Positions 1 to 25,205 of a DNA stretch of 64,000 bases are shown one piece after another. The stretch is taken from positions 3,847,501-3,911,500 of the forward strand of contig CP000699.1 of NCBI GenBank assembly GCA_000016765.1. The letters are read 5' to 3'. Below the pieces are notes generated by a model. That model saw nothing but the letters and a program-made list of their open reading frames with translations, searched no databases and was not told where the DNA came from. The DNA comes from Rhizorhabdus wittichii RW1. GTDB lineage: Bacteria; Pseudomonadota; Alphaproteobacteria; Sphingomonadales; Sphingomonadaceae. The translations under genes were made by a program, and so were the position numbers. Position 1 is the stretch's first letter. Each line of letters begins with the position of its first letter.

Positions 1-2205
<2,205 letters not shown>

Positions 2206-2299
2206 AGAGCCCCACCATCAACAACAATCCTGATGGCGGTATAAAACTCTCAGCATCAACATGCACGGTTTCTAGAATTCTCATGCACGGCCTCCATAG

Positions 2300-2414
2300 C
2301 TTGGTGGCCATAGCGTCTGTGACCCACCCGATCCCATCCCGAACTCGGCCGTGAAACCAGACTGCGCCGATGGTACTAGCGCTTAAGCGGTGGAAGAGTA
2401 GGGCGTCGCCAGGC
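2300..2414 (+). rRNA. rrf: 5S ribosomal RNA
   Basis: The segment has the conserved 5S core 'cccgatcccatcccgaactc' near 2328-2347, followed by the 'gtgaaaccag' and 'gatggtact' elements, and its ends can pair (cttggtggc with gtcgccagg). It starts about 95 nt after 23S, the normal order in an rrn operon. Length about 115 nt is typical. Ends are set by terminal-stem pairing and may be off by a few bases. Confidence 0.95.
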
Positions 2415-2452
2415 TTTGAAGGCCGTGCATCAGAATAACCCATTCACTTTGT

Positions 2453-2546
2453 TTGCCGGCCTCAGGCGCCGGCGGCAGCATCCGCTGCCTTGGCTTCCGC
2501 GGGGATACCGCGACGGCCTTTGGCCTTGCGGAGCCTTACAGGCTCC
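2453..2546 (+). repeat. Multi-hairpin repeat element, copy A (between 5S and tRNA-fMet)
   Basis: This stretch folds into successive hairpins: 2455-2473 (GCCGGC arms), 2474-2489 (GGCAGC-atcc-GCTGCC), 2515-2525 (GGCC-ttt-GGCC) and 2530-2546 (GGAGCCT-tac-AGGCTCC). A second copy begins near 63909 and runs off the window. Conserved primary blocks are 'ggcctcaggcgccggcg', 'gcatccgc', 'cttggctt' and 'ttgcggagcctt'. Stems differ between copies by compensatory changes. Because it lies inside the rrn transcript it must be transcribed here. Confidence 0.75.
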
Positions 2547-2578
2547 GGCCCTCGGCCCAACAAGGCCACAATCAGTGT

Positions 2579-2655
<77 letters not shown>

Positions 2656-2717: not shown

Positions 2718-2906
2718 TAAAATCGTTCCGGCATATTATGCCGGGCGCCTTATCGCGCACGGCGATCTCGCACCTTTGCGTACACGCAAATCGACGCGCG
2801 CTTCCCGCGCGAGATGATGGCCGCCTTCCGGCGGCTGGCCAGGTGACGAGGCGCGCGCGATCCTGCGGCTGCCATCGGCCAGGCCAGCTAGCCCATTAGG
2901 GCTTTT
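2718..2906. repeat. Gene-free stretch of consecutive palindromes
   Basis: No convincing gene is seen between the tRNA and 3190. The DNA carries a run of inverted repeats: 2728-2744 (CCGGCATA/TATGCCGG), 2775-2790 (TTTGCG-taca-CGCAAA, a member of a dispersed family described below), a GCGCG-cttcc-CGCGC hairpin near 2793-2808, a GCCGCC-ttcc-GGCGGC hairpin near 2820-2835, and AGCCC-atta-GGGCT followed by TTT near 2888-2905. It reads as a repeat cluster rather than coding sequence. Confidence 0.55.
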
Positions 2907-3189
2907 GCATCCGGTTTGAACCTGACGCCGGCAGCAGCTTGTCGGTGGCCTTTGCGGAAGCGGGATCCCCGATTTCGGACTCGAGCAACACCTCCTTCCA
3001 GCTTTGCGAGTCTGCGAAACCTCGTTGCGGCGATCGGCGCGAGGTCGGCTTTTCCGGCGGATCGACGCGCTTTTCGGATCGTGTCGGATGCCGCCGCATC
3101 GGTTTCTGTTGGACGGCGGGAACACCCCATCCGCTGCCTAAAAAGGCGCGTCGCCCTCCCTCGCGCGACGTCAATTGGGGTTAAAGATC

Positions 3190-5295
3190 ATGTCGAATTC
3201 CGCCTATCCGCGTTCCGTCAGGCGGCGCCTGCTGAGCGCGAGCGCCCTGTCGATCCTGCTTCTCACCTCCGCCTGCTCCGATGGCATCGGCTTCGATATC
3301 GGGAAGGGCGTCGGCCCGACCTCTCCCTCGGGACCGAGCGGCCCGTCGGGACCCGGCGGTCCGACGCCGCCCTCCGGGCCGAGCGGCCCGTCGGGGCCGA
3401 GCGGTCCTTCCGATCCCAGTGGCCCCGGCGGCCCCAGCGGCCCGGGTGGTCCTTCGGGGCCGAGCGGCCCTGGCGGACCCTCGGGTCCCGGCGGACCTTC
3501 CGGCCCCGGCGGCCCTTCCGGTCCCGGTGGTCCGAGCGGTCCTGGTGGCCCAAGCGGTCCTGGTGGTCCGAGCGGTCCAAGCGGCCCCGGAGGTCCTGCT
3601 GGTCCGACCGGCCCTGCCGGTCCCACGGGCCCCACAGGTCCGACCGGTCCTGCTGGCCCGACCGGCCCTGGTGGCCCGACCGGTCCCGGTGGCCCAACCG
3701 GCCCGACCGGCCCCACGGGTCCAACGGGTCCAACCGGACCGACTGGGCCAACCGATCCTACGGGGCCAGGTGGTCCGAGCGGGTCGGCACCGGGGACACC
3801 GGTGGGTGTCTCGATCGGCGGCACCTCGCCGCTCGGCCCGACTGGATCGAAGACGCTGATCGGCGCCAATATCCTGCCGGGTGGTGAGCCCTCGACCGGG
3901 ACACTGGCCACCGTCGACGTCCTGACCGGCGACGGCACCATTGCCGACGTCAAGCTGCCCACCACCACCGATGGCGTCCGCGACGGCCTTGCCCCGGTCG
4001 GGTCGCTGGTCGGCGCGATCGTCGGCAAGCCGGTCGGCGATGCCGTCACCGGGCTGACCGACCGACTCGCGCCGACGCTGAGCCCGGTCACGGGCGCGGT
4101 CGACGGCATCCTGTCGCCGGTGCTGGGCGCCGCCAACAATGCGCTCTCGCCGCTCACCGACCCGCTCGTCGGATCGGACGGCGCGCTCGCGCCGCTGACG
4201 GGGGCGGTCACCGGCCTGCTCGGCGGGGTGGTCGGCAACCTGCCCGGCACGCCGCAGAGCGACTCCTTCGCAGGGCCGCTCGCAGGGCTCGACCTGGCGG
4301 GCTCGAAGCTCAGCGGCGCATCGACCGGCGACACGCTGGTCGGGCTCAACCTGCTGCCCGGACCGGCCGGCGCCACGCCGGTCACCGGAACGCTCGCGAC
4401 GGCGAGCGTCCTGTCGGGCGGGCAGGTCGTCGGCCTCGGCCTGGCGACCACGGCGCCCGGCGTCCAGGCCGGGCTCCAGCCGGTCGTCAACCTGACCGGG
4501 GCGCTGCTCGGGCCGCAGGTCGGCGGAACGGTCGGCGAGCTGACCTCGACGCTGGCGCCGCCGGTCGCGGCGCTGACCTCGACCGTCCAGACCATCTCCA
4601 ACCCGATCGTCAGCACCGTCAACACCCTCGCGACCCCGATCGCGGGACCGCTGCTCACCCCGACCGGCCCGCTCGCGCCCGTCACCAACATCGTCCAGAC
4701 CGCGGTCTCGACGGTCACGTCGGCGCTCGCCAGCACCGGCGGCTCGCCGTCGGGCCCGGGCGACATCCTCGCCCCGGTGACAGGCATCGTCGGATCGGTG
4801 CTCGGCGGCGGTTCGGGGAGTGGCTCGCCGGTCGATCCCGGTGCGATTCTCGCGCCGGTCACGGGCGTGGTCGGCGCTCTCCTCGGCGGTGGCTCGGGGG
4901 GGGGCTCCCCGGCCGATCCGGGGGCGATCCTCGCACCGGTCACGAACATCGTGGGTTCGGTGCTCGGCGGCGGCACGGGTGGCGGTTCGCCGGTCGATCC
5001 GGGCTCCATCCTGGCGCCGGTCACGGGCGTGGTCGGGGCCGTCCTCGGTGGCGGTTCAGGCGGTTCACCGGCTGACCCGGGAGCGATCCTCGCACCGGTC
5101 ACGGGTATCGTCGGTTCGGTGCTCGGCGGAGCCTCGGGGGGCTCGCCCGCCGATCCGGGCGCGATCCTCGCGCCCGTCACCGGCCTGGTCGGCTCGGTTC
5201 TTGGTGGAGCGGGGGGAACCGCGCCGACCGGACCGGCAGGACCCCTTGCCCCGGTCACCAACCTGCTCGGTGGCCTGCTGGGCAGGGGCTCCTGA
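3190..5295 (+). CDS. Collagen-like repeat lipoprotein, copy 1
   Basis: A 701-residue protein beginning with a basic, hydrophobic signal and a lipobox-like L-T-S-A-C, so it is probably exported and lipidated at Cys 28 or so. From about residue 45 to 200 it is almost pure G-P-x triplets (GPS, GPG, then GPT), a collagen-like tract; a low-charge region of G/A/L/P/V follows, and the C-terminus carries seven copies of a 24-27 residue unit built on I-L-A-P-V-T-G-x-V-G-x-V-L-G-G. Function is unknown; a surface or stalk-like structural role is an inference. ATG 3190 is chosen over the in-frame TTG 3175 because GGGG lies about 10 nt upstream and because copy 2 starts at the matching ATG. Paired with the PilZ-like gene downstream. 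A long reverse ORF across it is an artefact of G/C-rich triplets. Confidence 0.85.
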
Positions 5296-5299
5296 CCGC

Positions 5300-5334
5300 C
5301 TCCCGGCCCGCCCTCCCCAAGGGCGGGCCGGGAG
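5300..5334 (+). other. Perfect 15-bp intercistronic hairpin, copy 1
   Basis: CTCCCGGCCCGCCCT (5300-5314) is perfectly complementary to AGGGCGGGCCGGGAG (5320-5334) with a 5-nt loop. It starts 5 nt after the stop codon and has no T-run, so it more likely protects or partly terminates the upstream message than ends transcription fully. It is identical at 8222-8256. Confidence 0.8.
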
Positions 5335-5358
5335 CAACCCGCGCGACCCGTACCAGAG

Positions 5359-5883
5359 ATGAGAGGCGTCCCCCAGATGCTCAACACCATGTCCTCGAAG
5401 CGCGACGGCGAGCTGCTCGAAAGGCGGCTGTCCTCACCGGTGCGCTTTCCGTCCTGCCGCCTTCTGTCGAGGGGCGACTGCATCGTCGACCTCCAGGACG
5501 AAGGTCCCTCCGACGAAGGCGGCAGTGACGGTCCGGCCGGCCGGCTCCATGTCGGCTCGATCGTCTGCCTCGACCTGCCGCTGATCGGCCTGCGCAACGC
5601 GCGGGTGCTGTGGATCCAGGCGGGGCAGGCCTGCTGCCGGCTGCTCGTCCCGCTCACCGAGAGTGAGCTGCGGGCGTCGGTCGGGGAGAGCCGCCCGACC
5701 CCGCCGCGCAGTTTCCGTCCGGTCGAGGACGGCACGGCCGAGCCGCTCGAGATCATGCGCATCCCCACCGGACCCGCGCTCCGGCCTGCGCCGAGCATCG
5801 CCGACCGGCTCGACCGCATGGTGCTCCTCGGCCTGACCCTGGTCCTCGCCACCTGGATCGCCCTCTACGTCCTGCCCTTCTGA
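5359..5883 (+). CDS. PilZ-like protein with C-terminal membrane anchor, copy 1
   Basis: A 174-residue protein. Residues about 20-100 resemble a PilZ fold: an R-R-x5-R segment, a strand-rich middle with '[12 protein letters not shown]', then '[15 protein letters not shown]', which matches the usual 'aeVvW..g..aGl.F' strand of PilZ proteins. The canonical D/N-x-S-x-x-G motif is not clean, so c-di-GMP binding is uncertain. The last ~20 residues form one hydrophobic helix, giving a tail-anchored topology with the domain in the cytoplasm. It follows the collagen-like gene after a hairpin. Copy 1 differs from copy 2 by a 12-nt insertion at about 5527-5538 (four residues, G/P/A/R-rich). Alternative starts at codons 7 and 11 exist. 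Confidence 0.65.
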
Positions 5884-6031
5884 TCCCCTTTCAGGGATTG
5901 CCCCAAGGAACGTTTCGGAGAGTGTTTGCTCCCGGCAAAATCTCCGGTCTGTCCGTCCACCCCAAGCGGACCTGGCGGCGTTCATTGTTCAGAAGAGCAT
6001 GATTGTTCCCGTAGCTTTGCTTACCCCCAAG

Positions 6032-6065
6032 CCGCCGCCGCTCTCTACAAGCGGCGGCGGTTTTT
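6032..6065 (+). terminator. Rho-independent terminator, copy 1
   Basis: CCGCCGCCGCT (6032-6042) pairs with AGCGGCGGCGG (6050-6060) around the loop ctctaca and is followed by TTTTT. It ends the first collagen-like/PilZ-like transcript. The matching structure in copy 2 has compensatory stem changes. Confidence 0.88.
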
Positions 6066-6372
6066 CGTTGGGGCCGGGCCGGCGGTTTCGCATCCGGTTT
6101 GAACCTGACGTTCTTCGTGCTCCCAGGCTTCTGTTTGCGGGGCCTTCGCATCGCGGTTTCGGGCTTCGATCGATCGCGATCCGGACTTTGCGAATCCGCA
6201 AAACCGTCTTGCGGCGATCGGCCAGGACCCCGTTTTTGCGGGGGATCGGAGACCCTGCGGGATCGTGCCGGATGCCGCCGCATCGGTTTCTGTTCGGCAC
6301 CGGGAATCACCATGACGCTGCCTAGAACAGATGCGTCGCCATTCGTCACGCGACGTCATTGGGGTAAAGATC

Positions 6373-8217
6373 ATGTCGAATTCCAGCCATTCGCATCCTG
6401 TCCGGCGGCGCTTGCTGAGCGCGAGCGCCCTGTCGATCCTGCTTCTCACCTCCGCCTGTTCCGACGGGGTGGGGTTCGATATCGGGAAGGGCGCCGGCCC
6501 GACCTCGCCCAGCGGCCCGTCGGGCCCCAGCGGTCCGTCGGGGCCGAGCGGTCCTTCCGGTCCCAGTGATCCTTCCGGCCCGAGCGGTCCCAGCGGCCCG
6601 TCGGGTCCGAGCGGCCCGTCCGGACCTTCCGGACCTTCCGGTCCGAGTGGTCCTTCAGGTCCGAGCGGCCCGTCGGGTCCGAGCGGTCCCAGCGGGGCAG
6701 CGCCGAGTACGCCGGTGGGCATCTCGATCGGCGGCACCTCGCCGCTCGGCCCGACCGGATCGGGGACGCTGATCGGCGCCAATATCCTGCCGGGCGATAA
6801 GCCCTCGACCGGGACGCTGGCCACCGTCGACGTCCTGACCGGCGATGGCACCGTCGCCGATGTCAAGCTGCCCACCACGACCAACGCCGTGCGTAAGGGG
6901 CTCGCCCCGGTCGGATCGCTGGTCGGTGCGGTCGCCGGCAAGCCGATCGGCAATGCCGTCACCGGTCTGACCGACCGACTCGCGCCGACGCTGAGCCCGG
7001 TCACGGGTGCGGTCGACGGCATCCTGTCGCCGGTGCTGGGCGCCGCCAACAATGCGCTCTCGCCGCTCACCGATCCGCTCGTCGGATCGGACGGCGCGCT
7101 CGCGCCACTGACGGGGGCGGTCACCGGCCTGCTCGGCGGGGTGGTCGGCAACCTGCCCGGCACGCCGCAGAGCGGCTCTTTCGCAGGGCCGCTCGCAGGG
7201 CTCGACCTGGCGGGCTCGAAGCTCAGCGGCGCATCGACCGGCGACACGCTGGTCGGGCTCAACCTGCTGCCCGGACCGGCCGGCGCCACGCCGGTCACCG
7301 GAACGCTGGCGACGGCGAGCGTCCTGTCGGGCGGGCAGGTCGTCGGCCTCGGCCTGGCGACCACGGCGCCCGGCGTCCAGGCCGGGCTCCAGCCGGTCGT
7401 CAACCTGACCGGGGCGCTGCTCGGGCCGCAGATCGGCGGAACGGTCGGCGAGCTGACCTCGACGCTGGCGCCGCCGGTCGCGGCGCTGACCTCGACCGTC
7501 CAGACCATCTCCAACCCGATCGTCAGCACCGTCAACACCCTCGCGACCCCGATCGCGGGACCGCTGCTCACCCCGACCGGCCCGCTCGCGCCCGTCACCA
7601 ACATCGTCCAGACCGCGGTCTCGACGGTCACGTCGGCGCTCGCCAGCACCGGCGGCGGCACCGGCGGCTCGCCATCGGGCCCGGGCGACATCCTCGCCCC
7701 GGTGACGGGCATCGTCGGATCGGTGCTCGGCGGCGGTTCGGGCGGCGGTTCGCCGTCGGGTCCGGGCGCGATCCTGGCGCCGGTCACGAATGTCGTCGGC
7801 GCTGTCCTGGGCGGCGGCCTGGGTGGAGCGCCGTCAGGGTCGGGCGACATCCTCGCGCCGGTGACGGGCATCGTGGGGTCGGTGCTCGGCGGCGGCACGG
7901 GCGGCGGTTCGCCGGTCGATCCGGGCTCCATCCTGGCGCCGGTCACGGGCGTGGTCGGGGCCGTCCTCGGTGGCGGTTCAGGCGGTTCGCCGGCTGACCC
8001 GGGAGCGATCCTCGCGCCGGTCACGGGTATCGTCGGTTCGGTGCTCGGCGGGGCCTCGGGGGGCTCGCCTTCCGGCGCGGGGAACATCCTCGCGCCCGTC
8101 ACCGGCCTGGTCGGCTCGGTTCTTGGTGGAGCGGGGGGAACCGCGCCGACCGGACCGGCGGGACCCCTTGCCCCGGTCACCAACCTGCTCGGTGGCCTGC
8201 TGGGCAGGGGCTCCTGA
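6373..8217 (+). CDS. Collagen-like repeat lipoprotein, copy 2
   Basis: A 614-residue paralogue of the 3190 gene with the same signal sequence and lipobox-like L-T-S-A-C. Its G-P-S tract is about half as long (roughly residues 45-115) and contains almost only GPS triplets, with none of the GPG/GPT blocks of copy 1. The central region is colinear and nearly identical from about codon 250 of this copy onward; the C-terminus again has seven ILAPVTG-type units, with different linkers in units 1, 2 and 5. ATG 6373 is preceded by GGGG and matches the start of copy 1. Function is unknown; the two copies may encode surface fibres of different length. Confidence 0.85.
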
Positions 8218-8221
8218 CCGC

Positions 8222-8256
8222 CTCCCGGCCCGCCCTCCCCAAGGGCGGGCCGGGAG
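8222..8256 (+). other. Perfect 15-bp intercistronic hairpin, copy 2
   Basis: Identical in sequence and position to the hairpin at 5300-5334: 15-bp perfect stem, 5-nt loop, 5 nt after the stop codon of the collagen-like gene and 25 nt before the PilZ-like start. Confidence 0.8.
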
Positions 8257-8280
8257 CAACCCGCGCGACCCGTACCAGAG

Positions 8281-8793
8281 ATGAGAGGCGTCCCCCAGAT
8301 GCTCAACACCATGTCCTCGAAGCGCGACGGCGAGCTGCTCGAAAGGCGCTTGTCCTCGCCGGTGCGCTTTCCGTCCTGCCGCCTTCTGTCGAGGGGCGAC
8401 TGCATCGTCGACCTCCAGGACGAAGGTTCCTCCGACGAAGGCGGCAGTGACCGGCTCCATGTCGGCTCGATCGTCTGCCTCGACCTGCCGCTGATCGGCC
8501 TGCGCAACGCGCGGGTGCTGTGGATCCAGGCGGGGCAGGCCTGCTGCCGGCTGCTCGTCCCGCTCACCGAGAGTGAGCTGCGGGCGTCGGTCGGGGAGAG
8601 CCGCCCGACCCCGCCGCGCAGTTTCCGTCCGGTCGAGGACGGCACGGCCGAGCCGCTCGAGATCATGCGCATCCCCACCGGACCCGCGCTCCGGCCCGCG
8701 CCGAGCATCGCCGACCGGCTCGACCGCATGGTGCTCCTCGGCCTGACCCTGGTCCTCGCCACCTGGATCGCGCTCTACGTCCTGCCCTTCTGA
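8281..8793 (+). CDS. PilZ-like protein with C-terminal membrane anchor, copy 2
   Basis: A 170-residue near-identical paralogue of the 5359 gene, lacking the four-residue insertion after 'EGGSD'. It keeps the PilZ-like strand pattern and the terminal hydrophobic helix. Its retention next to a second collagen-like gene argues that the two proteins work as a pair, for example with a membrane-held c-di-GMP or signal receptor controlling export or anchoring of the surface protein; this is inference. Confidence 0.65.
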
Positions 8794-8941
8794 TCCCCTT
8801 TCAGGGATTGCCCCAAGGAACGTTTCGGAGAGTGTTTGCTCCCGGCAAAATCTCCGGTCTGTCCGTCCACCCCAAGCGGACCTGGCGGCGTTCATTGTTC
8901 AGAAGAGCATGATTGTTCCCGTAGCTTTGCTTACCCCCAAG

Positions 8942-8974
8942 CCGCCGTCGCTCCCTACAAGCGACGGCGGTTTT
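8942..8974 (+). terminator. Rho-independent terminator, copy 2
   Basis: CCGCCGTCGCT (8942-8952) pairs with AGCGACGGCGG (8960-8970), then TTTT. Relative to copy 1 a C-G pair became T-A on both arms, a compensatory change that supports a working structure. It lies just before the convergent cpaA stop at 8979. Confidence 0.85.
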
Positions 8975-8978
8975 CGTT

Positions 8979-9434
8979 TCAGACGAGGAAGGGGAGTCGG
9001 CCGGCCAGCGGCACGGCGGCGGCGATCGCGATCGCCACGCCATAGGGTACCCCACGCGCGGTCGCGCGCCGGCCGAACGGCAGGATCAGCAGCGCGAGGA
9101 CAGCGCCCGTCACCGCCATGATCGCGGCTGCCTCCAGCGCTTCCTTTCCCGGCAGCCATAGCAGCAACGCGGCGCTCAGCTTGACGTCGCCGCCGCCCCA
9201 GGCGCGGATCGCGAACAGCAGCAGGAGGATGGGGAGGGCGACCGCGATCACCACCGCCTGCCCGATGACGCGGCCAAGGAGATCGGGCGCCGCGGCCAGC
9301 CAATAGGGCGCGGCGAGCAGCGCGACCAGGACGACGAGACGGTTCGGGATGGTGCGGGAGCGGAGATCGACGACGGCGCAGGCGAGCAGGATCGCCAGCA
9401 CGGCGACGACGAGCGCGGCGGCCACGCCCGGCAT
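8979..9434 (-). CDS. cpaA: Prepilin peptidase of the Tad/Flp system (A24 family)
   Basis: A 151-residue membrane protein with about five hydrophobic helices. It has the two aspartate sites of type IV prepilin peptidases: D in 'VVDLRSRTIPN' near residue 23 and the GxGD-type 'GGGDVK' near residue 82. Members of this short class (CpaA/TadV) lack the N-terminal methylase domain and cleave the Flp prepilin and TadE/F pseudopilins at the inner membrane. It lies 5 kb from the flp gene and is not in the main tad operon; it follows the 2OG oxygenase by 29 nt. Confidence 0.88.
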   Translation of the reverse strand: MPGVAAALVVAVLAILLACAVVDLRSRTIPNRLVVLVALLAAPYWLAAAPDLLGRVIGQAVVIAVALPILLLLFAIRAWGGGDVKLSAALLLWLPGKEALEAAAIMAVTGAVLALLILPFGRRATARGVPYGVAIAIAAAVPLAGRLPFLV

Positions 9435-9463: not shown

Positions 9464-10024
9464 TCAGCGCCAGCGCGGTCCCTCGACCCAGGAGACGAGG
9501 CTGCGGCGGATGCCGCCGGTCACGGGCAGCACGCGATGCTGCATCCAGGACGGGAAGATCAGCAGGCTGCCGCGCGGCGCGAACAGCGCGCCCGGATGCT
9601 GCAGCCCGAAAAATTCGAAGGCGCCGCCTTCATAATCGGCCGGGTCCGACAATTGGACGACCAGCGACAGCTTGCGGTCATAGGGGCGGGTGGATTCGAG
9701 CCACACGTCCTGATGCCAGTCATATTTGCCCTGGCTGGTGCCATGATATTCGGTGAACTGCAGGTCGAAGGGCGCGACGATGTCGACCCCGAAATTGGTG
9801 CGGTTCGACGAGACGACGAAGCTCATCAGCCGGGCGACGATCGCCTGTTCGGCCCCGGTGTCGAGCCAGCGCACCACCGAGGTGCGGTAGCCGTCGTCCT
9901 GCCGTGTGTCCTTGGCGAAGCCCACCGTCGCGGTCTGCGGCGCATAGCGCAGACCGCGCTCGATGATCTGGTCGCACTCCTCGGACGACAGCGCCGACGT
10001 CCAAACCTCCCAGACATTGTTCAT
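9464..10024 (-). CDS. 2OG-Fe(II) oxygenase (prolyl-4-hydroxylase type)
   Basis: A 186-residue single-domain dioxygenase. Iron ligands fit His104 and Asp106 in 'YDWHQDVW' and His163 in 'SWMQHRVLPV', with Arg173/174 for 2-oxoglutarate binding. A conserved 'GGAFEFFG' strand precedes the distal histidine. The family hydroxylates protein or small-molecule substrates; the substrate here is not evident. Closeness to two proline-rich collagen-like proteins is suggestive of proline hydroxylation, but cpaA lies between and no direct evidence links them. Confidence 0.82.
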   Translation of the reverse strand: MNNVWEVWTSALSSEECDQIIERGLRYAPQTATVGFAKDTRQDDGYRTSVVRWLDTGAEQAIVARLMSFVVSSNRTNFGVDIVAPFDLQFTEYHGTSQGKYDWHQDVWLESTRPYDRKLSLVVQLSDPADYEGGAFEFFGLQHPGALFAPRGSLLIFPSWMQHRVLPVTGGIRRSLVSWVEGPRWR

Positions 10025-10043
10025 CGTCGCGCCTCGCTATCGG

Positions 10044-10165
10044 TTTTGCGTATCCGCAAAACGGTCAGGGCAAGCCGCGCGCATTTGAATCGCGCGGCTT
10101 GCTCTGAACCTTTGTTGCCGCATTGCTGCTTGCGGAAAACCGGTGCCCACTTTTCCGCGCAATGC
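10044..10165. repeat. Mosaic of three palindromic repeats
   Basis: Between the 2OG oxygenase start and the TpsB stop there are three palindromes in a row: TTTTGCG-tatc-CGCAAAA (10044-10061); a 12-bp GCAAGCCGCGCG hairpin (about 10069-10104); and GCGGAAAA...TTTTCCGC (10132-10158), followed by 'aatgctctag'. The last resembles mosaic intergenic repeats known in alphaproteobacteria. The second could also serve as a terminator. Confidence 0.6.
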
Positions 10166-10166
10166 T

Positions 10167-11828
10167 CTAGAATCCATATCCGAAGCTGCCGAACAGCCGG
10201 GCCTTGCGGCTGTAGCCGGGGCCGGGGCGGTCGATCGGAACCGCGACCTCGACGCCGAGCCGCACCTTGCCGAGCTGGAGGCGGACGCCGCCGCCCGCCG
10301 ATGCCAGCGAGAATTTCTCCGCGGCGATGCCGTAGAAGGGACGCGCCTCGGTGCGCCCCAGTCCGCCGTCGACGAAGGCGAAGATCGAGGTCCCCTTGAT
10401 CCGGCTTTTCGGCAGGGGCAGCGTCCAGCTCAGCTCGGCGGTGCCGGTCGCGCCGCGATCGGCGGTCACCGTCCCGACGCGGAAGGCGCGTCCCGCGCCC
10501 GATCCGCCGAGCGCGAGCCGCTCGGTCACCGGCAGCTTGTCACGGCTATATTGCGCGTTGGTGGTCAGCTTCGCGATCAGGTTCTTGGTGATCGCGTTGA
10601 CGACCACGGTCTGGACGTTGACCTTGGTGAAGTCCTTCTCGGTGAAGCCCGTGAACGCCTTGGCGTCGAGGATGTCGAGGCCGCGGCTGACGACGGCGGT
10701 CATCGCGTAGCCGGTCTTCTCGGTCGACCGCGAGAAGCTCGCGCCGAACCGGATCGCGCGCGACCGATAGTCGCCGAAACGGGTGTCGAGATAATAGTTG
10801 CTGCTGTCGATGCCGTCGAGCGAGGCGCTGACCGACAGGTTGGTCTTGTAGGACCGGATCACCGGATAGCTGAGCGAAATCCCCGCCAGCGTCGCGCGTC
10901 CGTCGATGTCGCCGAGGGTGGCGTTGCGCGACCGCGACTTGAGCCGCGCCGCGGTGACGGTCGCGGTCATGCCGTTGCTGGCGATCGGCGTCGCATGGCT
11001 GATCGTGTAGAACTGGTAGCGATCGGGATGGAGCGGCAGATAGCTGCTGACCTTGGTGGTGTCGCCTTCGCGGAGCAGGTTGTTGGCGGTGACGGTGGCT
11101 TGCGCCTGGAAGGCGCTGGTCACGTTGCTCACGCCATTATTGTCGATCGCGATGCCGAGATGGAAGGGGCGTCGCCTGAGGGTGAGATCGAGGGCGAGCG
11201 AGCCGGCGGCGTCGAGCTGCCGCACCGATGCCTCGACGGTCTGGCCGGGCATGTCGCGCATCAGCGACAGGCTGCGTTCGAGCACGCTCTTGCGCAGCGG
11301 AGTGCTGCGCATGATCCGCGCGATGTGCGCCTTGACCAACTCGGTCGGCGCGTCGTCGGGAAGCCCCTTGATGCTGTATTGCTTGACCGCGCCCTCGACG
11401 ACCTGGACGGTCAGCACGCCTTGTTCCAGCCGCTGCGCGGGGATCGCCACCGAATAGAAGGCGATGTCGCTCCGCGCATAGACCTTGCCGACCGCCTCGA
11501 CGATCGCCTTGAGCACGTCCTGGGTGAGCGCCTGGCCGCGATAGGCGGTGGTGATCGCCTCGAGCGTTTCGAGCGGGAGCGAGCTTCCCGCGAAACGGAT
11601 CTGGGTCAGGTTCACCGCCGCGGCGGAGGCGGCGACGTTGAAGGCGGGGCGGGGGATCGACACGCGCGGCACGCCCGGCAGGGTCGGGACGACGCGATCG
11701 GTGCGATCGCGATCGATGACCGGCGCCTGCGCGCGATCGGCCTGGATATCGGCGGCGGCGGGCGCCTGGGCCGCCAGCGGTGAGGCGAGACTCAGCCCGA
11801 GCAGGGCCAAGGCTATACGCGGCTTCAT
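10167..11828 (-). CDS. TpsB-type outer-membrane transporter (ShlB/FhaC/HecB family)
   Basis: A 553-residue precursor with a clear signal peptide (MKPRIALALLGLSLASPLAAQA). A POTRA-like domain with 'VVEGAVKQY' occupies about residues 60-180, and the remainder is a 16-strand-like beta-barrel with alternating polar/hydrophobic strands, 'RLALGGSGAGRAF', an 'FVDGG' strand and a C-terminal aromatic residue (GYGF). Such proteins secrete large TpsA exoproteins (adhesins, hemolysins) in two-partner secretion. ATG 11828 is chosen over 11855 because the signal peptide begins there. No TpsA partner is seen in the window. Confidence 0.85.
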   Translation of the reverse strand: MKPRIALALLGLSLASPLAAQAPAAADIQADRAQAPVIDRDRTDRVVPTLPGVPRVSIPRPAFNVAASAAAVNLTQIRFAGSSLPLETLEAITTAYRGQALTQDVLKAIVEAVGKVYARSDIAFYSVAIPAQRLEQGVLTVQVVEGAVKQYSIKGLPDDAPTELVKAHIARIMRSTPLRKSVLERSLSLMRDMPGQTVEASVRQLDAAGSLALDLTLRRRPFHLGIAIDNNGVSNVTSAFQAQATVTANNLLREGDTTKVSSYLPLHPDRYQFYTISHATPIASNGMTATVTAARLKSRSRNATLGDIDGRATLAGISLSYPVIRSYKTNLSVSASLDGIDSSNYYLDTRFGDYRSRAIRFGASFSRSTEKTGYAMTAVVSRGLDILDAKAFTGFTEKDFTKVNVQTVVVNAITKNLIAKLTTNAQYSRDKLPVTERLALGGSGAGRAFRVGTVTADRGATGTAELSWTLPLPKSRIKGTSIFAFVDGGLGRTEARPFYGIAAEKFSLASAGGGVRLQLGKVRLGVEVAVPIDRPGPGYSRKARLFGSFGYGF

Positions 11829-12503
11829 CGCTCGAGCACTCCACGGGTTACACATACAGGGCAGACGAAGCCGCCGTTTCCCGGAGCACCCCTGCCGCTA
11901 TCGGCGGTACCCGAATCGTCGCGGCTTTCACGCGGAACAACAACCGGAGCGGATGGAATCCGGGCGACGCCCGCCCTGCCGCGCGGGCGAGCGCCGGTCC
12001 GCGCACGTCGCCCGGAAAACAAGGCGAAATCGCCGTCGCCGGAAACGGAGAGGGGCAAGGTCGCGGGCGACGGGCATGACGGGACGCGCAGGTCGGGTTT
12101 TTTCGGGCGTCATCCCTATTCCGCAAGCAGAAAACAGACCGAAATCACGGCATTGCAGTCAAGCGGTCCGATCTCGGCCGGGGCGAGCGGAGGGATATCC
12201 GATAAGAACCGATGTGGACCCTGTTGTTCTGGTAAATAAATGGTTATTTTTGAAGGATATGGTTAGCTGATCTTGTTGGGCCGGGATGATTCCCGATCGG
12301 ATCGGGTACTTCATCATTCATCGCCGATCAGGGCTGTCGGCGAATTGGGAAACCCCGCATCGGGTCCGCGCCGTCGGCATGGGTTGCGGATACGCAAAGC
12401 CGCGCCGCCAAGGAACCGGATCGGATCGATCTCGGCATTCTCCCCCCGCGACACGCGATTATGCTGTCTGGCGTATCGCGCACCAGCGTTCGGGAGGGGG
12501 GTT
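11829..12503. other. Gene-free interval between tpsB and the ParB-like gene
   Basis: No convincing coding sequence is seen in these 675 nt. An AT-rich patch at about 12219-12270 contrasts with the GC-rich surroundings and includes two TGGTTA direct repeats, so it probably carries the promoter(s). A TTGCG-gata-CGCAA palindrome lies at 12384-12397. Confidence 0.5.
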
Positions 12504-13517
12504 ATGGCCAGCTTCATGAGAGAGATTTTCGGGGATATCTCGGGCAGCGGAGCCGCGCACAAGGGGCCGGGGCCGGCGAAGGAGGGCGACGACCTCGCCC
12601 ATCTCGACGCGCGGCTCGCCGGTGCGGTGCGGAGCGGCAGCGACGGCACGGGGATCGTGATGCTCCAGCCCGCGGAATGCGTGGTGTGGGACGGCAATCC
12701 GCGCGACGTTCCGCGGCTGACGCCCGAGGGGTGCCGGAGCCTGATCGAATCGATCGCGACGGAAGGCGGCAATCGCATTCCCGTGTTGGTCCGGCGGGCG
12801 GGCGAAGGCGCCGAGATTCCCTATGAACTGCTGGTCGGAAGCCGGCGGCGCTTCGCCGTCGATTGGTTGAATCACAATGGACGCCCGGAGTTGCGGTTGA
12901 GTGCCCTGATCGTCGATGTCAGTGACGAGGAGGCTTTCCGGATCGCCGATCTGGAAAACCGCGAACGTGCCGACATCTCCGAAATCGATCGCGCCCGCAG
13001 CTATCAGGCGGCGGTCGACCGCTTCTACGGCGGCGTCCAGTCGAAGATGGCGCAGGCGCTGAGCCTTTCGAACAGCCAGCTCAGCCGGCTGCTGTCGCTG
13101 GCCCAGCTTCCCGAGGACGTGGTCGAGGCCTTTCCCGCGCGCACCGAGCTGCGCGTACGGCATTCGGAGGTGCTGACCCCGCTGCTCCGCCGCCCCGAAT
13201 TGCGCGCCGCGATCATCGATGCGGCGATCGCGATCGCCGCGCAGCAGCAGCAGCGCACCGCCAACAAGCAGCCGCTGATCGCGGCGGCGGCGGTGCTGTC
13301 GAAGCTGCGCCAGGCGGCGGTGTCGGAGCCCTCGAAGCCCGAGCCGGTGACGCTGATGGCGGGCGGCACCAAGGTCGGCGTCATGCGGCATGGCCGCGGC
13401 GGGGTGGTGGACGTCAGCCTGTCGGTCGGCGGCGACGTCGATGTCGAAAGCCTGCTGGCGGAACTGGGGCGCCGCCTCCGCGAAGCCCAGCGGGAAGGGA
13501 TGACGCGGGCGGCGTGA
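12504..13517 (+). CDS. Orphan ParB/RepB-like nuclease-domain protein
   Basis: A 337-residue protein. Residues about 50-150 form a ParB/Spo0J N-terminal domain: 'ECVVWDGNPRD', a region ending in 'YELLVGSRRRFA' (the GERRxRA-like box) and 'IADLENRERADISEIDRARSY' split over the CTP-binding fold. A helix-turn-helix KorB-like segment follows ('QALSLSNSQLSRLLSLAQLP', about 185-205). The C-terminus has short alpha and beta stretches. A strong GGAGGGGGG sits 3-14 nt before ATG 12504. No parA partner or obvious parS cluster is seen here, so it is probably a chromosomal regulator or relic of a plasmid-type partition system rather than the main ParB. Confidence 0.8.
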   Translation: MASFMREIFGDISGSGAAHKGPGPAKEGDDLAHLDARLAGAVRSGSDGTGIVMLQPAECVVWDGNPRDVPRLTPEGCRSLIESIATEGGNRIPVLVRRAGEGAEIPYELLVGSRRRFAVDWLNHNGRPELRLSALIVDVSDEEAFRIADLENRERADISEIDRARSYQAAVDRFYGGVQSKMAQALSLSNSQLSRLLSLAQLPEDVVEAFPARTELRVRHSEVLTPLLRRPELRAAIIDAAIAIAAQQQQRTANKQPLIAAAAVLSKLRQAAVSEPSKPEPVTLMAGGTKVGVMRHGRGGVVDVSLSVGGDVDVESLLAELGRRLREAQREGMTRAA

Positions 13518-13760: not shown

Positions 13761-14645
13761 TCAGTTCTTCCTGAGATCGGCGAGATAGGCGAGCAGCGAG
13801 GCCTCGACGTCGGGGCTCAGCCGCAGGAAGTCGCGCCGGCGGTCATGCGCGTCGGGCAGGCGTTCGAGGATCTTGTCGCCCACCAGCCGGTTGATCAGCC
13901 GCAGCGCGGTGGTGGTCGGCGCGCCCGATGCGATGCAGGCGCTGGAGACCGAAACCTCGCGCCCGTCGAGCTTGGCGGCGAGCAGGTCGAGCAGGACCGA
14001 CCATGTGCAGTCGCCGAACAGCCGGCCGTCGAGCAGGGCCCGGCGCTTGGCTTCCTTGCGGAGCATGTCCCGGACGAATTCGGCGCTCACCGTCTCGTCG
14101 GACGCCGCCGGCTCGGCGGCCGGAGCGGCCTTGCCGAACGAGGGGAGCGCTTCGTCCATCAGGTTCGACAGGCGCTGGATTTCGAGGCTCAGCGTCGTGA
14201 GCTGCGAGGCGAGCGCCTTGCGGGTCGAGCTTTCGGGCTTGATGCCGCGGACGCGCAGCAGGGCGTTGCGCAGGTCGTCGCGGGTGATCGGCTTCTGGAG
14301 GATGTCGACCACCGAGGCCCGCACCGCCGCGACGACGAGGTCGAGCGTCGCATGTTCGGCGACCAGGATGAACCGCAGCTCGCGCCCCTCGTCGGCGGTC
14401 CGGGCGGCCAGGTCCTCGGCCAGGCTGATGCCGTCGAGGCCCGGCAGGTTCTGGTCGATGATCAGGGTCGAGATCGACCGGTTGTCGATCTTGGCAAAGG
14501 CTTCGGCAGAAGATTGCGCCGCGAAGGAAGGAAATCCGAACGAATGGAGCATGAACTGACATTCATCGATCCAGTCGACATCGTTCCCGATGACGAGAAC
14601 GGCCTCAACAACCTCGTCCGCCTGTACGACGTCAAAGAGCGTCAT
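13761..14645 (-). CDS. Response-regulator receiver with C-terminal winged-helix domain
   Basis: A 294-residue protein. Residues 15-125 match a receiver domain: acidic pair near 22-24, phosphoacceptor Asp64 in 'TLIIDQNLPG', and Lys118 in 'LQKPI'. A linker with a coiled-coil-like leucine pattern (about 140-170) leads to a MarR-like winged helix at about 205-285 ('IASGAPTTTALRLINRLV...RRRDFLRLS'). It lies downstream of, and in the same direction as, the tad pilus genes, and the histidine kinase-like gene at 25206 on the far side of the operon is a plausible partner. Controlling pilus genes is an inference. Confidence 0.8.
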   Translation of the reverse strand: MTLFDVVQADEVVEAVLVIGNDVDWIDECQFMLHSFGFPSFAAQSSAEAFAKIDNRSISTLIIDQNLPGLDGISLAEDLAARTADEGRELRFILVAEHATLDLVVAAVRASVVDILQKPITRDDLRNALLRVRGIKPESSTRKALASQLTTLSLEIQRLSNLMDEALPSFGKAAPAAEPAASDETVSAEFVRDMLRKEAKRRALLDGRLFGDCTWSVLLDLLAAKLDGREVSVSSACIASGAPTTTALRLINRLVGDKILERLPDAHDRRRDFLRLSPDVEASLLAYLADLRKN

Positions 14646-14885: not shown

Positions 14886-15299
14886 TCACGAATAACTTCC
14901 GTTGCCGACGATCACCGACGAGGTGATCGTCGTATTGGGCAGCGGCAGGAGCGCGCCGTAGCGCATGATCGGGCTGCCGCTGATGTCGTAGCTGATCTTG
15001 ACCTCGAAGCTGCCCGACGCGCCGACGCCGGCCCGGATGTCGGGCTGGCTGCCGGCCGAGAGCATCAGGCCATATTGGTCGAGGACCTGCTGCGCCCGCG
15101 CGGTCGCGAGCGTGGTCCGTTCGCTGGTGCTGAGGCCGGCAAGCGCCGCGCGAGCGCCCTCGGCGGCGGCTTGCCGTACCCCGATATAGGTCGCGAAATA
15201 GGTCGAATAGACCAGGATCGCGAACATCAGCATGATGAGCGCCGGGGCGATCAATGCGAATTCGATCGCCGCGGCGCCCTTGTTTCCCAGACGAACCAA
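14886..15299 (-). CDS. tadE: TadE-like pseudopilin
   Basis: About 137 residues. The N-terminus has the TadE/TadG pattern 'GNKGAAAIEFALIAPALIMLM', that is a short basic leader, a G-A cleavage/insert site and glutamate, then one transmembrane helix; the rest is periplasmic. TTG 15299 is preferred because GGGGAGG lies 8 nt upstream; the GTG at 15308 overlaps that Shine-Dalgarno sequence. It follows flp by 18 nt. In Tad systems TadE is processed by the prepilin peptidase and is needed for fibre assembly. Confidence 0.85.
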   Translation of the reverse strand: MVRLGNKGAAAIEFALIAPALIMLMFAILVYSTYFATYIGVRQAAAEGARAALAGLSTSERTTLATARAQQVLDQYGLMLSAGSQPDIRAGVGASGSFEVKISYDISGSPIMRYGALLPLPNTTITSSVIVGNGSYS

Positions 15300-15317
15300 G
15301 TTGGTCACCTCCCCGGA

Positions 15318-15509
15318 TCAGGAATCGCCGGGGAAGGTGATGACGTTGAGCATGCCCGACAGCTTGTTGGACAGGCCGTTGCCGAAGTTGGTGGCGCCGG
15401 CGGACAGCGCGATTCCGATGGCGCCCACCAGGATCGCATATTCCACGGCCGAAGCTCCCTTCTCCTCGCGGGAGAGGCGCTTCATCGTCGATCGAACGCA
15501 CTTCAACAT
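15318..15509 (-). CDS. flp: Flp-type major pilin
   Basis: A 63-residue prepilin with the leader ending in '...REEKG', cleavage before A-S-A-V-E-Y, the conserved Glu5/Tyr6-like pair, and a hydrophobic segment 'AILVGAIGIAL'. This is diagnostic of Flp/PilA pilins. AGAGGAG lies 7 nt upstream of ATG 15509. The gene sits downstream of tadG rather than at the start of the operon, and the 77-nt gap before it is the first real gap in the cluster, so it may be expressed separately. Confidence 0.92.
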   Translation of the reverse strand: MLKCVRSTMKRLSREEKGASAVEYAILVGAIGIALSAGATNFGNGLSNKLSGMLNVITFPGDS

Positions 15510-15586: not shown

Positions 15587-17308
15587 TCAGACCAGCACGG
15601 GCACCCCGCAGCGTACGCCGGTGGTCCAGATGTTCGCATAGCCTGCCTGAACCCCCAGCGTGGCGAGCAGGCTGGTCACCAGCGGGTCCACGGTTGCGCT
15701 CAGCACGCCGGCGACCGTCGTCTTGATGAGGGGGAGGTTCAGCAGGCCGTTGAGAAGGCTTACTCCGCCAAGGTTGACCTGCAGATTGGTTCCAAGCGAT
15801 GCCACGAGCGAACCGAGCTGCGATCCGCTGACCACCCTGACGGACGCGCCGGCAATGCCCGGCTTGCTGGCGGAGGCGGGCCTGCCGATGGTTCCGTTCG
15901 CGCGGCTGAAGGTGACGGGCTGGGCGGCGGCGATGGGATCCTCGACCACGGACTTCAGCTTGATCAAGCCCAGCAATATGTAGGCGTCATCGAAATCGGC
16001 GCCGCTCAGCGGCTTGAACGGCAATGCCAGAGGGTCGGTACGGGGTATCCCGATATAGGCCTTTAGCAGGCTGGCCCGCGCGTTGACGGTGACGACGGAA
16101 TCGGTGTCGGCCTCGGACGTGCACTGGATGTTAGCGACACTCGCGGAACCGGAGCCGATTTCGATGAGGACGGGAACCTTGACGATCGATCCGGCGCCGA
16201 TGAGCGAGAGGACGGTGCCGAGAATGCCCAGATCGACGTCGACGTCGAGGCGCAGTCGCGTCACGGCGGTGTAGGCGCTTGTCTCGTTGGCCGGGCCATA
16301 GCCGAAGCGCGGATTGGACAGGACGTCGGTCGTCATGCCCGCCAGCCGCACCGCCGGGGTCAGCGACAGCGATGGCGGCTGGCCGCCGGCGAGCAGCGCA
16401 TAGTTGAGCAGCTGGAAGGCGTTGATCCCGGCGCGCAGCGAGGTCTGGGCCTGGGCGTTGCCGACCGGCATCTTCTCCCAGACGCCGAGATCGGCGAGGC
16501 CGGTCAGCTTGACCTTGTAGGCGCTGCCGACCTGCGCCGACAGGTTGAGCAGCAGCGTGCTGGTCGGGGTGGAACCGGCGACCGCGGCGGCGTCGCCGGC
16601 CGCGCCGAGCACGTCGGAGAAGGCGATCGGGCTGCTCAGCAGCTCGGCATAGGTCCCGGTCCGGCCGGCGCGGGCCGCCAGCTTGTCCATGAACAGGCCC
16701 ATGTCGATGTCGCTGCCCATCAGCGTCGTGATCTGGGCGCCGGTGAGCGCGATGTTGCGGCCGGTCAGCAGGGTGAGGAGCTGGTTGACCACGCCGTTGC
16801 TGAGGCCGAGCACGCCCGACGACACCTGCACCCCGGCCTCGTCGATCTTGGCGGCGGTGGCGGTCGCGGCGAGGTTGGGAATGGGGGAGGCGTTGCCGAG
16901 CAGCGCCAGCATATATTGGCTGCTGGGCTGGCTGGTCTTCAGCCGCACGGCGTTGGTCTGGCCGTTGCCGGGGCAGGGGCTCGCGGCGGCGCTGGCGAAG
17001 AAGCGGCCGGTCGGCGCGAGGCTCTTGTCGGGGCAGTAGCGCCCCGCCTGGATCGACTGGATGACGCTCGACGGATAGCCGTTGCGCTGGAGATAGTCCT
17101 GCGCCCGCGACAGCGCGTTGGCGGGGTTGCCCGCGGCATAGAGCGCGGCGGCCTCGGTCGCGGCCTTGAGCCGCTTGCTGCCCGAATAGAAGGCGCCCAC
17201 GTCGAGCGCGATCCCGGCCGTGCAGACCAGGCTCGCGCCGAGCACGGCGACGATCGGCGCGACGGCGGCCGACCGGTCGGACCAGAGGGAGCCGAGCCGC
17301 GCGATCAT
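15587..17308 (-). CDS. tadG: TadG-like pilus assembly protein
   Basis: A 573-residue membrane-anchored protein. The N-terminal ~45 residues have 'DRSAAVAPIVAVLGASLVCTAGIALDVG', the single-helix TadG/TadE-like segment, followed by 'KRLKAATEAAALYAA'. The long remainder is periplasmic, rich in A/G/L/S/T, with a few cysteines near the C-terminus. TadG proteins are thought to bridge the inner membrane and pilus machinery. ATG 17308 overlaps the stop codon of the upstream small ORF (ATGA), showing translational coupling; the upstream open frame to 17692 is non-coding. Confidence 0.85.
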   Translation of the reverse strand: MIARLGSLWSDRSAAVAPIVAVLGASLVCTAGIALDVGAFYSGSKRLKAATEAAALYAAGNPANALSRAQDYLQRNGYPSSVIQSIQAGRYCPDKSLAPTGRFFASAAASPCPGNGQTNAVRLKTSQPSSQYMLALLGNASPIPNLAATATAAKIDEAGVQVSSGVLGLSNGVVNQLLTLLTGRNIALTGAQITTLMGSDIDMGLFMDKLAARAGRTGTYAELLSSPIAFSDVLGAAGDAAAVAGSTPTSTLLLNLSAQVGSAYKVKLTGLADLGVWEKMPVGNAQAQTSLRAGINAFQLLNYALLAGGQPPSLSLTPAVRLAGMTTDVLSNPRFGYGPANETSAYTAVTRLRLDVDVDLGILGTVLSLIGAGSIVKVPVLIEIGSGSASVANIQCTSEADTDSVVTVNARASLLKAYIGIPRTDPLALPFKPLSGADFDDAYILLGLIKLKSVVEDPIAAAQPVTFSRANGTIGRPASASKPGIAGASVRVVSGSQLGSLVASLGTNLQVNLGGVSLLNGLLNLPLIKTTVAGVLSATVDPLVTSLLATLGVQAGYANIWTTGVRCGVPVLV

Positions 17309-17544
17309 CGCGGGCCGTTCCCCTGGTCGGGGGCGATCGTCTGGCCGATCGAGCCGATATAGCGGCGATAGACCGCATCCGCCTCGTCGGGATCGAGGCC
17401 GGCGTCGGCGCTGGTGCGCGGCGGCGTCGCGAGCTGGCTCTCCATCACGCTGCGCGCCTCGCCGCGATGGAGGGCGGGCAGCGGCGCGGGCGGCGGCGGG
17501 CTCGCCGCGACGGTCGCGGCGGCCGCGATCAGGATCGCCATCAT
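17305..17544 (-). CDS. Small exported protein embedded in the tad operon
   Basis: A 79-residue protein starting 'MMAILIAAAATVAASPPPPAP', a probable signal peptide or anchor with a proline-rich exit, followed by a hydrophilic segment with 'DEADAVYRRYIGSIGQ'. It is coupled at both ends: its ATG overlaps the tadD stop (ATGA, 17541-17544) and its stop overlaps the tadG start (ATGA, 17305-17308). That makes it a real gene despite its size. I do not recognise the family; placement suggests a periplasmic accessory of the Tad machine, perhaps in the position of a pilotin or RcpB-like part. Confidence 0.72.
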   Translation of the reverse strand: MMAILIAAAATVAASPPPPAPLPALHRGEARSVMESQLATPPRTSADAGLDPDEADAVYRRYIGSIGQTIAPDQGNGPR

Positions 17545-18236
17545 CGTCCGTTTTCCTTTCCCGGCAGGGCCGGCTCGCGGGCGATGCGCTTCGCCTCGGT
17601 GGTGATGGTGCGCAGCAATTCGGCCTGCGCCTTGCGGTTGCCGGTCGTGCGGATGCCGGCGGACAGCTCCTGCTTGCGGCCGGTGACGGCATAGGCGAGC
17701 AGCAGGTTGTTGCGGATCACCGTCTCGCCGGGGGCGAGGTCGCAGGCGCCGCGCAGCTCCTCGATCGCGCTGTCGCCTTCGCCGGCGCGGAGCTGGGCAT
17801 AGCCGAGCGCGTTGCGCAGCAGCGGATCGGCGGGGCTGGCCGCCACCGCGGCCTGGTAACGCTCGCTCGCCTCGCGCCAATGGCCGCGCGCCGCCAGCGC
17901 ATGGCCGCGCACCGCGTCGACCGTGGCATTGCCCTGGACCTTGGCGAGGGCCGCCACGATCCGCTCGGCCTCGTCCACCTGGCCCAGGTCGAGCAGGCTG
18001 TTCACCCGCAGCACCTGCGCGCCGACGTCGCCGGGAAAGCGCTTGTCGAAATCGTCGAGATAGGCGAGCGCCGCGCGCGGCCGGCCGTCGCTGCGCGCCT
18101 GGCCGATCAGCTGGAGATAGAGGCCGCGCGTCTGCGGCGCGGACGACTTGGCCGGCGGCGCGGCGCGTGCGGCGGAGGGCGCGACGACGGGGGGCGCGAC
18201 CGCGAGCAGGAACAGGATCAGGGGCCGGATGGTCAT
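17541..18236 (-). CDS. tadD: TadD-like TPR protein
   Basis: A 231-residue exported protein with a signal sequence (MTIRPLILFLLAVAPPVVAPSAA) and at least three TPR-like helices: 'YLDDFDKRFPGDVGAQVLRVNSLLDLGQVDEAERIV', split here at natural turns, 'ARGHWREASERYQAAVAASPADPLLRNALGYAQLRAGE' and 'AIEELRGACDLAPGETVIRNNLLLAY' in shorter form. TadD is the usual lipoprotein/TPR factor that helps localise the secretin; this copy lacks an obvious lipobox. It overlaps tadC by 4 nt and the small ORF by 4 nt. Confidence 0.85.
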   Translation of the reverse strand: MTIRPLILFLLAVAPPVVAPSAARAAPPAKSSAPQTRGLYLQLIGQARSDGRPRAALAYLDDFDKRFPGDVGAQVLRVNSLLDLGQVDEAERIVAALAKVQGNATVDAVRGHALAARGHWREASERYQAAVAASPADPLLRNALGYAQLRAGEGDSAIEELRGACDLAPGETVIRNNLLLAYAVTGRKQELSAGIRTTGNRKAQAELLRTITTEAKRIAREPALPGKENGR

Positions 18237-24710: not shown

Positions 24711-25205
24711 CGATACGCAACCCCCCATGTCCGATACGCAATTGCGACTTCGCAAAACGCGGTTTCCGGCCGTTTTCGGGCCGGCATCGGGTTCGGAGGG
24801 ACAATATCGCCTTCACCGTGCCTTGGGTGGCTGAGAAGAAACCGGTCCGGTTTTAATTTTCTTGGTGAACGGCCTTCGAAGCGCGGGCGAAAATGCGAGG
24901 AAGCCCGCAGCCGGAACATGCTTAACGTGGTTTCAAAACCGATCTGAATATAATTCCCTCCAAAAGGGATAGGACCGCTGTGGCAGCATTTGGGGCTTTA
25001 ACTTAGATTTAACTCGGCGCAGCGCAGTGCGAATCGCAGGCGCGCGCGGGGAAGCCAATCCGCGGGCGTCGATCCCCGACACCCTCGTCCTGATCGCGAC
25101 CGAGTCGGATCGCGCTGGAAAAGGGTGTGGTTTGGAGATAGCATCCCCGCTCGGGTGGCGCCGGCGGACGCTCGCTCTCCCCATGGCGAACGGCGGAGAG
25201 GTTGA
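24711..25205. promoter_or_regulatory. Divergent control region of the tad operon and a sensor-kinase gene
   Basis: These 495 nt contain no convincing gene. Seen are: a TTGCG-actt-CGCAA palindrome at 24742-24755; an AT-richer patch at about 24840-25015; and a perfect TTAA-N7-TTAA at 24998-25012. The arrangement is that of a shared regulatory region for the leftward pilus operon and the rightward kinase gene. Confidence 0.6.
24998..25012. promoter_or_regulatory. CtrA-type box TTAA-N7-TTAA
   Basis: TTAA (24998-25001), seven bases (cttagat), TTAA (25009-25012), followed by C, which is the full consensus bound by the cell-cycle regulator CtrA in alphaproteobacteria. It lies 288 nt from the rcpC start and 194 nt from the kinase start. 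In Caulobacter, CtrA activates pilA and cpa genes; the same control here is inferred. Confidence 0.65.

Follow-up and report, generated by a model that had tools for sequence, protein, structure and literature searches.

A stretch of 64,000 nucleotides from Rhizorhabdus wittichii RW1 (contig CP000699.1, positions 3,847,501 to 3,911,500; referred to below as the window) carries a unit present in two head-to-tail copies, at positions 2907-6089 and 6090-8974, which pairs a gene for a collagen-like lipoprotein with a gene for a PilZ-like protein. Each copy is read from the forward strand and consists of a leader, the collagen-like gene, a hairpin with a 15-bp stem, the PilZ-like gene and an intrinsic terminator; a preliminary description of this DNA had proposed this layout, and sequence comparison confirms it. 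In copy 1, the leader (2903-3189) is followed by col1 (3190-5295; 701 amino acids), the hairpin (5300-5334), the gene for PilZ-like protein 1 (5377-5883; 168 amino acids, ending in a hydrophobic helix) and the terminator (6029-6064). The same elements of copy 2 are the leader (6086-6372), col2 (6373-8217; 614 amino acids, with the start corrected to 6373), the hairpin (8222-8256), the gene for PilZ-like protein 2 (8299-8793; 164 amino acids) and the terminator (8939-8974). The second protein had been given as 174 residues long; starts at 5377 and 8299 are likelier, because R. histidinilytica lacks the upstream ATG, which Sphingomonas sp. Y57 does retain. The intergenic hairpin has a folding energy of -37.9 kcal/mol (z -5.6), and the two terminators fold with z of -7.1 and -6.6. 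One stem pair differs between the terminators in both arms (C-G to U-A), as if the stem had been kept.

The first 25 bases of the two units are 96% identical (2903-2927 and 6086-6110), and the leaders have 74% identity over 142 nt. From about position 4076 up to their terminators the copies hardly differ, save for the stretch of LAPVTG repeats (4733-5204), where matches fall to 43-51 in comparison windows of 60 bases, and for a gap of 12 bases in the PilZ-like gene, which otherwise shows six differences in 164 shared codons (synonymous divergence, dS, 0.039). The collagen tracts are of unequal length, spanning residues 47-197 in copy 1 and 47-107 in copy 2. The unit lies immediately 3' of the end of an rRNA operon (window positions 1-2652: a truncated 23S rRNA gene, 5S and a tRNA). 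R. histidinilytica (NZ_FUYM01000002.1) has a single copy directly after the same tRNA, with a counterpart of the intergenic hairpin; the flanks are the same in Sphingomonas sp. Y57, where the contig stops within the hairpin preceding the PilZ-like gene, so that the collagen side is not covered.

The collagen-like protein has a lipobox at C29, its sole cysteine, preceded by LLTSA, so the earlier label of lipoprotein fits by sequence. The tract is composed almost exclusively of Gly-Pro-Ser/Thr/Gly, and is followed by two look-alike domains, recognized by eye, and by the LAPVTG repeats. A long Gly-X-Y tract on an exported protein is what joins it to the known bacterial collagen-like proteins of the Scl, Lcl, Bcl and Bucl type; it differs from them in the C-terminal domains, which have no Pfam match, in the lipobox, in the nearly pure Gly-Pro-X composition of the tract, and in recurrent neighbours, among them an oxygenase gene and, at some of the loci, those for a Tad pilus. 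A Pfam scan of the two proteins found nothing above cut-off (Collagen at E 0.0038 for copy 2, and none for copy 1), and the SclB and Lcl models of NCBIfam match the tract far below their own cut-offs. Among 18 distinct collagen-like genes from this and related genomes, a lipobox is seen in 15 (in 13 by pattern, in both window genes by eye), and in the other three it was not seen in the frame shown. A strong hairpin also stands 3' of the collagen gene in R. histidinilytica and on plasmid pNIN1. In Novosphingobium PP1Y, both collagen-like genes (L083, 19290-21392 and 23668-25401) have a stop-free frame without a clean tract of at least six triplets, and in the gene examined most of the tract region reads in a different frame; sequencing error or repeat slippage is possible.

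Homology of the second protein to PilZ paralogues extends over residues 6-105 (hhalign probability 98.3%, E 2.5e-14), and its C-terminal hydrophobic helix spans residues 148-166 (KD19 2.38), so that both of these features of the preliminary description stand. Profile homology is also what connects it with the PilZ-domain proteins (PF07238), from which it departs in lacking a Pfam match of its own: neither copy hits any family at E <= 1, and 8 of the 10 genus paralogues scanned match Pfam PilZ above cut-off. (Twenty places had been extracted, and those omitted from scanning and alignment were on the wrong strand, contained stops or overlapped too little.) A C-terminal helix was measured also in four genus paralogues, chosen because they showed one; the others of the ten end without it. 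A search of PDB profiles with the PilZ-like set gave one match, at E 0.14, which was taken as chance. PilZ domains commonly bind cyclic di-GMP (c-di-GMP), through the motifs RxxxR and [D/N]xSxxG. The former is gone in all four PilZ-like sequences (R9xxxL13), a further departure from PF07238; DxSxxG is intact in R. histidinilytica alone, S and G being retained in all four and D lost in both window copies. Binding of c-di-GMP by the PilZ-like protein is therefore doubtful, as is the role of sensor that had been suggested for it. The ratio dN/dS is 0.30 against the R. histidinilytica sequence and 0.37 against that of Y57. Full-length matches occur in 3 of 14 genomes of the genus, and tblastn against the plasmid collection gave no match at E <= 0.01.

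The duplicated pair forms the border of a longer locus, roughly 24 kb in all (2.77-26.4 kb), whose remainder, from 8.98 kb on, was outside the earlier finding. Next to the terminator of copy 2, and on the reverse strand, lie genes for an A24 prepilin peptidase of CpaA type (8979-9434; Pfam Peptidase_A24, 8.1e-14), a 2-oxoglutarate (2OG)-Fe(II) oxygenase of 186 amino acids (9464-10024; 2OG-FeII_Oxy_3, 6.9e-14) and a TpsB outer membrane pore of the ShlB/FhaC family (10167-11828; ShlB 3.5e-24, POTRA_2 1.2e-9). The domain scan identified a ParB-like protein with a SopB-type helix-turn-helix (HTH) on the forward strand (12504-13517) and a response regulator on the reverse strand (13761-14645). They are followed, again on the reverse strand, by genes for a TadE-like protein (14886-15308) and the Flp pilin (15318-15509; Pfam TadE and Flp_Fap), and by a Tad operon (15587-24755) encoding a Tad_C/TadG-like protein (15587-17692), a TPR protein, two T2SSF proteins, a CpaF-type ATPase (20028-21377), a protein in the position of CpaE without Pfam match (21374-22540), the secretin CpaC (22537-23850) and RcpC/CpaB (23829-24755). 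The last gene of the locus, on the forward strand (25206-26357), specifies a conserved protein without Pfam match, homologous to L084 22911-24206 and to counterparts in other loci. Flp pilin, TadE, CpaF, TadB/C, secretin, CpaB and CpaA are thus all present, as in known Tad/Flp pilus loci, of which Caulobacter cpa is one; what distinguishes the locus from these is that collagen-like, oxygenase, TpsB and ParB-like genes adjoin it.

The TpsB has the barrel and POTRA domains of a two-partner secretion (TPS) pore, and there is no adjoining TpsA with a TPS domain. Genome-wide, TpsB is found in two places, and the sole TPS domain (PF05860) lies beside the other one, about 350 kb from the locus; for this reason we call the TpsB of the locus an orphan. 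That other place, at C1:3501604-3503462, has TpsB and the TPS-domain protein adjoining.

Counterparts of the locus, with a collagen-like lipoprotein, 2OG-Fe(II) oxygenase, orphan TpsB, prepilin peptidase, ParB-like protein, response regulator and Tad operon, are found in Sphingobium and Novosphingobium. The gene set is present in three Rhizorhabdus assemblies and, partly or wholly, in 13 further loci; these are the surroundings of 10 of the 19 plasmid records of Sphingobium, Novosphingobium and Sphingomonas in which the plasmid collection shows the collagen domain, together with three genomes of the family sample. The order in Sphingobium is TpsB, oxygenase, (prepilin peptidase), collagen, (EAL), (autotransporter), ParB, and orders differ elsewhere. 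Tad genes adjoin the locus in JS3065 pNIN1, RL4, PP1Y, pSA1 and the genomes G097 and G173. The collagen domain had no match in phages, and in a phylum sample of 398 genomes it was found in its own genome only; the family sample (298 genomes) was more productive.

Within that family sample, the C-terminal domain of the collagen-like protein, the oxygenase and the ParB-like protein have strong matches in the same five genomes, from four genera (collagen versus oxygenase presence, Fisher p 3e-10, with kinship uncorrected). The threshold was E <= 1e-40 for the oxygenase and E < 1e-90 for the ParB-like protein, the latter chosen after seeing the gap to 1e-66: five matches fall below 1e-90, and four more, between 1e-60 and 1e-66, were taken as other ParBs. 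A sixth oxygenase match, in G136, is 41% identical and has no locus. One weak collagen match, in G012 (E 2e-4, three internal stops), was dropped after no locus genes were found in the surrounding 12 kb.

The place 3' of the collagen gene is filled by an EAL protein in 9 of the 13 loci outside Rhizorhabdus, and therefore a c-di-GMP-type protein in this position is a recurring theme, with the PilZ-like protein as its Rhizorhabdus form. The DDFG aspartates and the metal-site asparagine are catalytic residues of EAL phosphodiesterases; all three are replaced in every one of the 11 rows aligned (with one locus counted twice), as would not be expected of an active enzyme. Several rows retain the E of EAL, and Pfam EAL still matches. 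PP1Y has the collagen-EAL pair twice in a row, and its second EAL gene is broken up over different reading frames in the record. Other occupants are an autotransporter gene (L060) and genes for a response regulator and kinase (L084 and L068), and in L067 the sequence ends. Novosphingobium RL4 has two collagen genes 5' of the EAL gene and, 3' of it, a protein in which a PilZ domain is followed by a Cro/C1-type HTH (L082, 22674-23540), a candidate for a c-di-GMP-linked DNA-binding protein. As to the pairing of collagen-like and PilZ-like genes expected in relatives, it recurs in R. histidinilytica, the flanks are shared by Y57, and collagen with a degenerate EAL protein is the corresponding pair in those nine loci; the narrow distribution of the PilZ-like protein goes against a unit made up of these two proteins alone.

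The locus is also marked by a 16-bp palindrome, TTTGCGTNNACGCAAA, which came from listing perfect palindromes in ten loci, the window included. Since the motif was derived from these loci, its presence there is no test; the rest of the genome is. In the 5.9-Mb genome, TTTGCGTNNACGCAAA occurs with at most one mismatch in two places, both in the locus, and the reversed control in none. The first is an exact copy, TTTGCGTACACGCAAA, a putative operator about 400 bp upstream of col1 (2775-2790); the second, with one mismatch, is 21 bp upstream of the oxygenase gene (10045-10060). At two mismatches the window gains sites upstream of col2 (6187-6202) and of the ParB-like gene (12383-12398), and one outside the locus (28297-28312) that is possibly due to chance; 20 Markov-resampled windows gave none. 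Across the family sample, the exact palindrome is present in 4 of 298 genomes and its reversed control in one; three of the four carry the locus with the site inside it (Fisher p 9e-6), and the fourth, G230, was counted as background after no locus protein matched in the surrounding 19.9 kb. Exact sites are found in 9 of 10 plasmid loci examined. With zero to two mismatches, the palindrome stands 12-82 bp before the start of 14 of 17 oxygenase genes; the three without it are that of G173 and two outside collagen loci.

The ParB class of proteins uses 16-bp palindromes of this kind, and the ParB-like protein is present in all 13 loci except that of G305, where the contig ends; for both reasons it is the likely binder of the palindrome. 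Its PDB matches are Noc, Spo0J and ParB, and no ParA was found among the neighbouring genes scanned, as is the case for orphan ParB-type regulators. One of these is VirB of Shigella (PMC10770331): it too is ParB-like, stands apart from any parABS operon and has a specific site in front of its target genes. The site here is different, its near-exact copies in the genome are all in one locus, and binding is predicted.

From these observations we propose a surface-attachment locus inherited as a whole, with the duplicated pair as its effector end, in which a VirB-like ParB clamp governs a collagen-type fibre and a Tad pilus jointly; we consider this reading evenly poised. Composition and synteny of the locus, co-occurrence of its genes and distribution of the palindrome are observed, and the roles given below are deduced. 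The oxygenase, which has no signal peptide as judged by eye, would hydroxylate residues of the Gly-Pro-X tract in the cytoplasm prior to export, prolines most likely. The collagen-like protein would be lipidated at C29, form triple-helical fibres through its tract, and be exposed on the outer face of the outer membrane, with the orphan TpsB as the likely pore; there it would help in attachment along with the adjacent Tad pilus. An adaptor role is suggested for the PilZ-like protein, anchored through its C-terminal helix, and in relatives for the degenerate EAL protein: either would tune output through contact with proteins and not by binding c-di-GMP in the canonical way. Because a strong hairpin separates the two genes, less of the adaptor than of the collagen-like protein would be made. 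The orphan ParB-like protein would load at TTTGCGTNNACGCAAA sites and switch the transcription units in concert, in the manner of VirB at virS. A bolder version, in which the locus would be a dedicated bacterial collagen production line, with a cytoplasmic hydroxylase, a TpsB exposing a collagen lipoprotein of non-TPS type, a slot for degenerate c-di-GMP proteins, a ParB CTP clamp with a private operator, and coupling to Tad, is tentative and rather doubtful.

Several findings weigh against the proposed attachment locus. TpsB pores are known to take substrates with TPS domains, and Pfam finds no such domain in the collagen-like protein. The nearest solved relatives of the oxygenase are PKHD hydroxylases of the PiuC type, prolyl 4-hydroxylases appearing only at E 0.03-0.18. 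Tad genes are missing from 5 of the 13 loci within the 6 to 20 kb examined on each side, in a survey in which the G305 locus is at a contig end and MEA3-1 was examined only up to the response regulator. In PP1Y, the 41 kb examined around the collagen genes showed neither TpsB nor oxygenase genes; G097 and G173 have these about 15 kb away from the collagen gene. The locus of G173 has no palindrome, the stretch examined in PP1Y has none within two mismatches, and that in G305 has no exact copy, only a site with two mismatches. Finally, several of the 13 loci are close kin, so that locus counts are not independent.

The alternative that survives best is that the oxygenase works on something else and the collagen-like protein serves as an adhesin without being modified, a serious possibility that still falls short of being probable. 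The PiuC-type relatives would suit it, and so would the oxygenase relatives that occur apart from collagen genes: G097 has, besides the oxygenase of its locus, a second one of the same family, 69% identical to that of the window and far from the collagen genes (L076, about 9734-10354; neither TpsB nor palindrome in the surrounding stretch examined), and G136 has the one mentioned above. Against this stands the presence of the oxygenase in five of the five genomes with a strong collagen-domain match. The enzyme itself is well conserved: the H, D, H and R columns, which are the iron and 2OG ligands, are kept in 17 of 17 aligned sequences, and dN/dS is 0.05. A bacterial 2OG oxygenase has been proposed for a collagen-like substrate before, in that a Bacillus prolyl 4-hydroxylase was tested on collagen-like peptides, according to a review (PMC8968730); in the present locus oxygenase and collagen genes are linked, and the nearest solved relatives are of PiuC type.

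Rather improbable is the notion that the collagen-like and PilZ-like proteins are a self-sufficient pair, a c-di-GMP sensor controlling or anchoring the fibre, with neighbours that are unrelated. The two genes adjoin and were duplicated together, they are kept in R. histidinilytica, and the second product is a PilZ homologue; yet the c-di-GMP-binding motif is degenerate, full-length PilZ-like matches are confined to three genomes of the genus, the slot elsewhere holds EAL, kinase or autotransporter genes, and the oxygenase and the ParB-like protein co-occur with the collagen gene. With full-length matches so few and a slot so variable, the earlier idea of a dedicated two-protein unit is not supported. 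Equally improbable is a passenger set on mobile replicons, in which the ParB-like protein and the palindrome would serve DNA partition and the surface genes merely travel along: it agrees with the 19 plasmid records and with the relationship of the ParB-like protein to a partition ParB of pNIN1 (E 8e-62), but the locus also lies on contigs of 5.4 Mb (the window) and 3.5 Mb (G097), ParA is missing among the scanned neighbours, pNIN1 carries, besides the locus ParB, an AAA ATPase-ParB-RepA set of its own, near which no palindrome is seen at up to two mismatches, and the palindrome sites sit directly 5' of oxygenase genes.

The individual parts of the attachment locus proposed here have known relatives, and the whole assembly was not found described in the open-licence PubMed Central literature searched, among the matches listed (titles and starts of abstracts); nothing there joined collagen-like proteins, Tad pili and Sphingomonas, and the matches to wittichii RW1 with collagen were unrelated. 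If the proposal is true, the locus would supply a collagen native to bacteria together with a candidate hydroxylase encoded nearby, so that natural collagen hydroxylation in bacteria could be tested directly, and its TpsB might export a substrate that has no TPS domain. It would also show one gene position taken by degenerate PilZ proteins in one genus and by degenerate EAL proteins in others. The discussion of the VirB paper (PMC10770331) notes that hardly any orphan ParB homologues have been studied so far; the locus would add one, with its operator predicted and its few target genes all in a single place.

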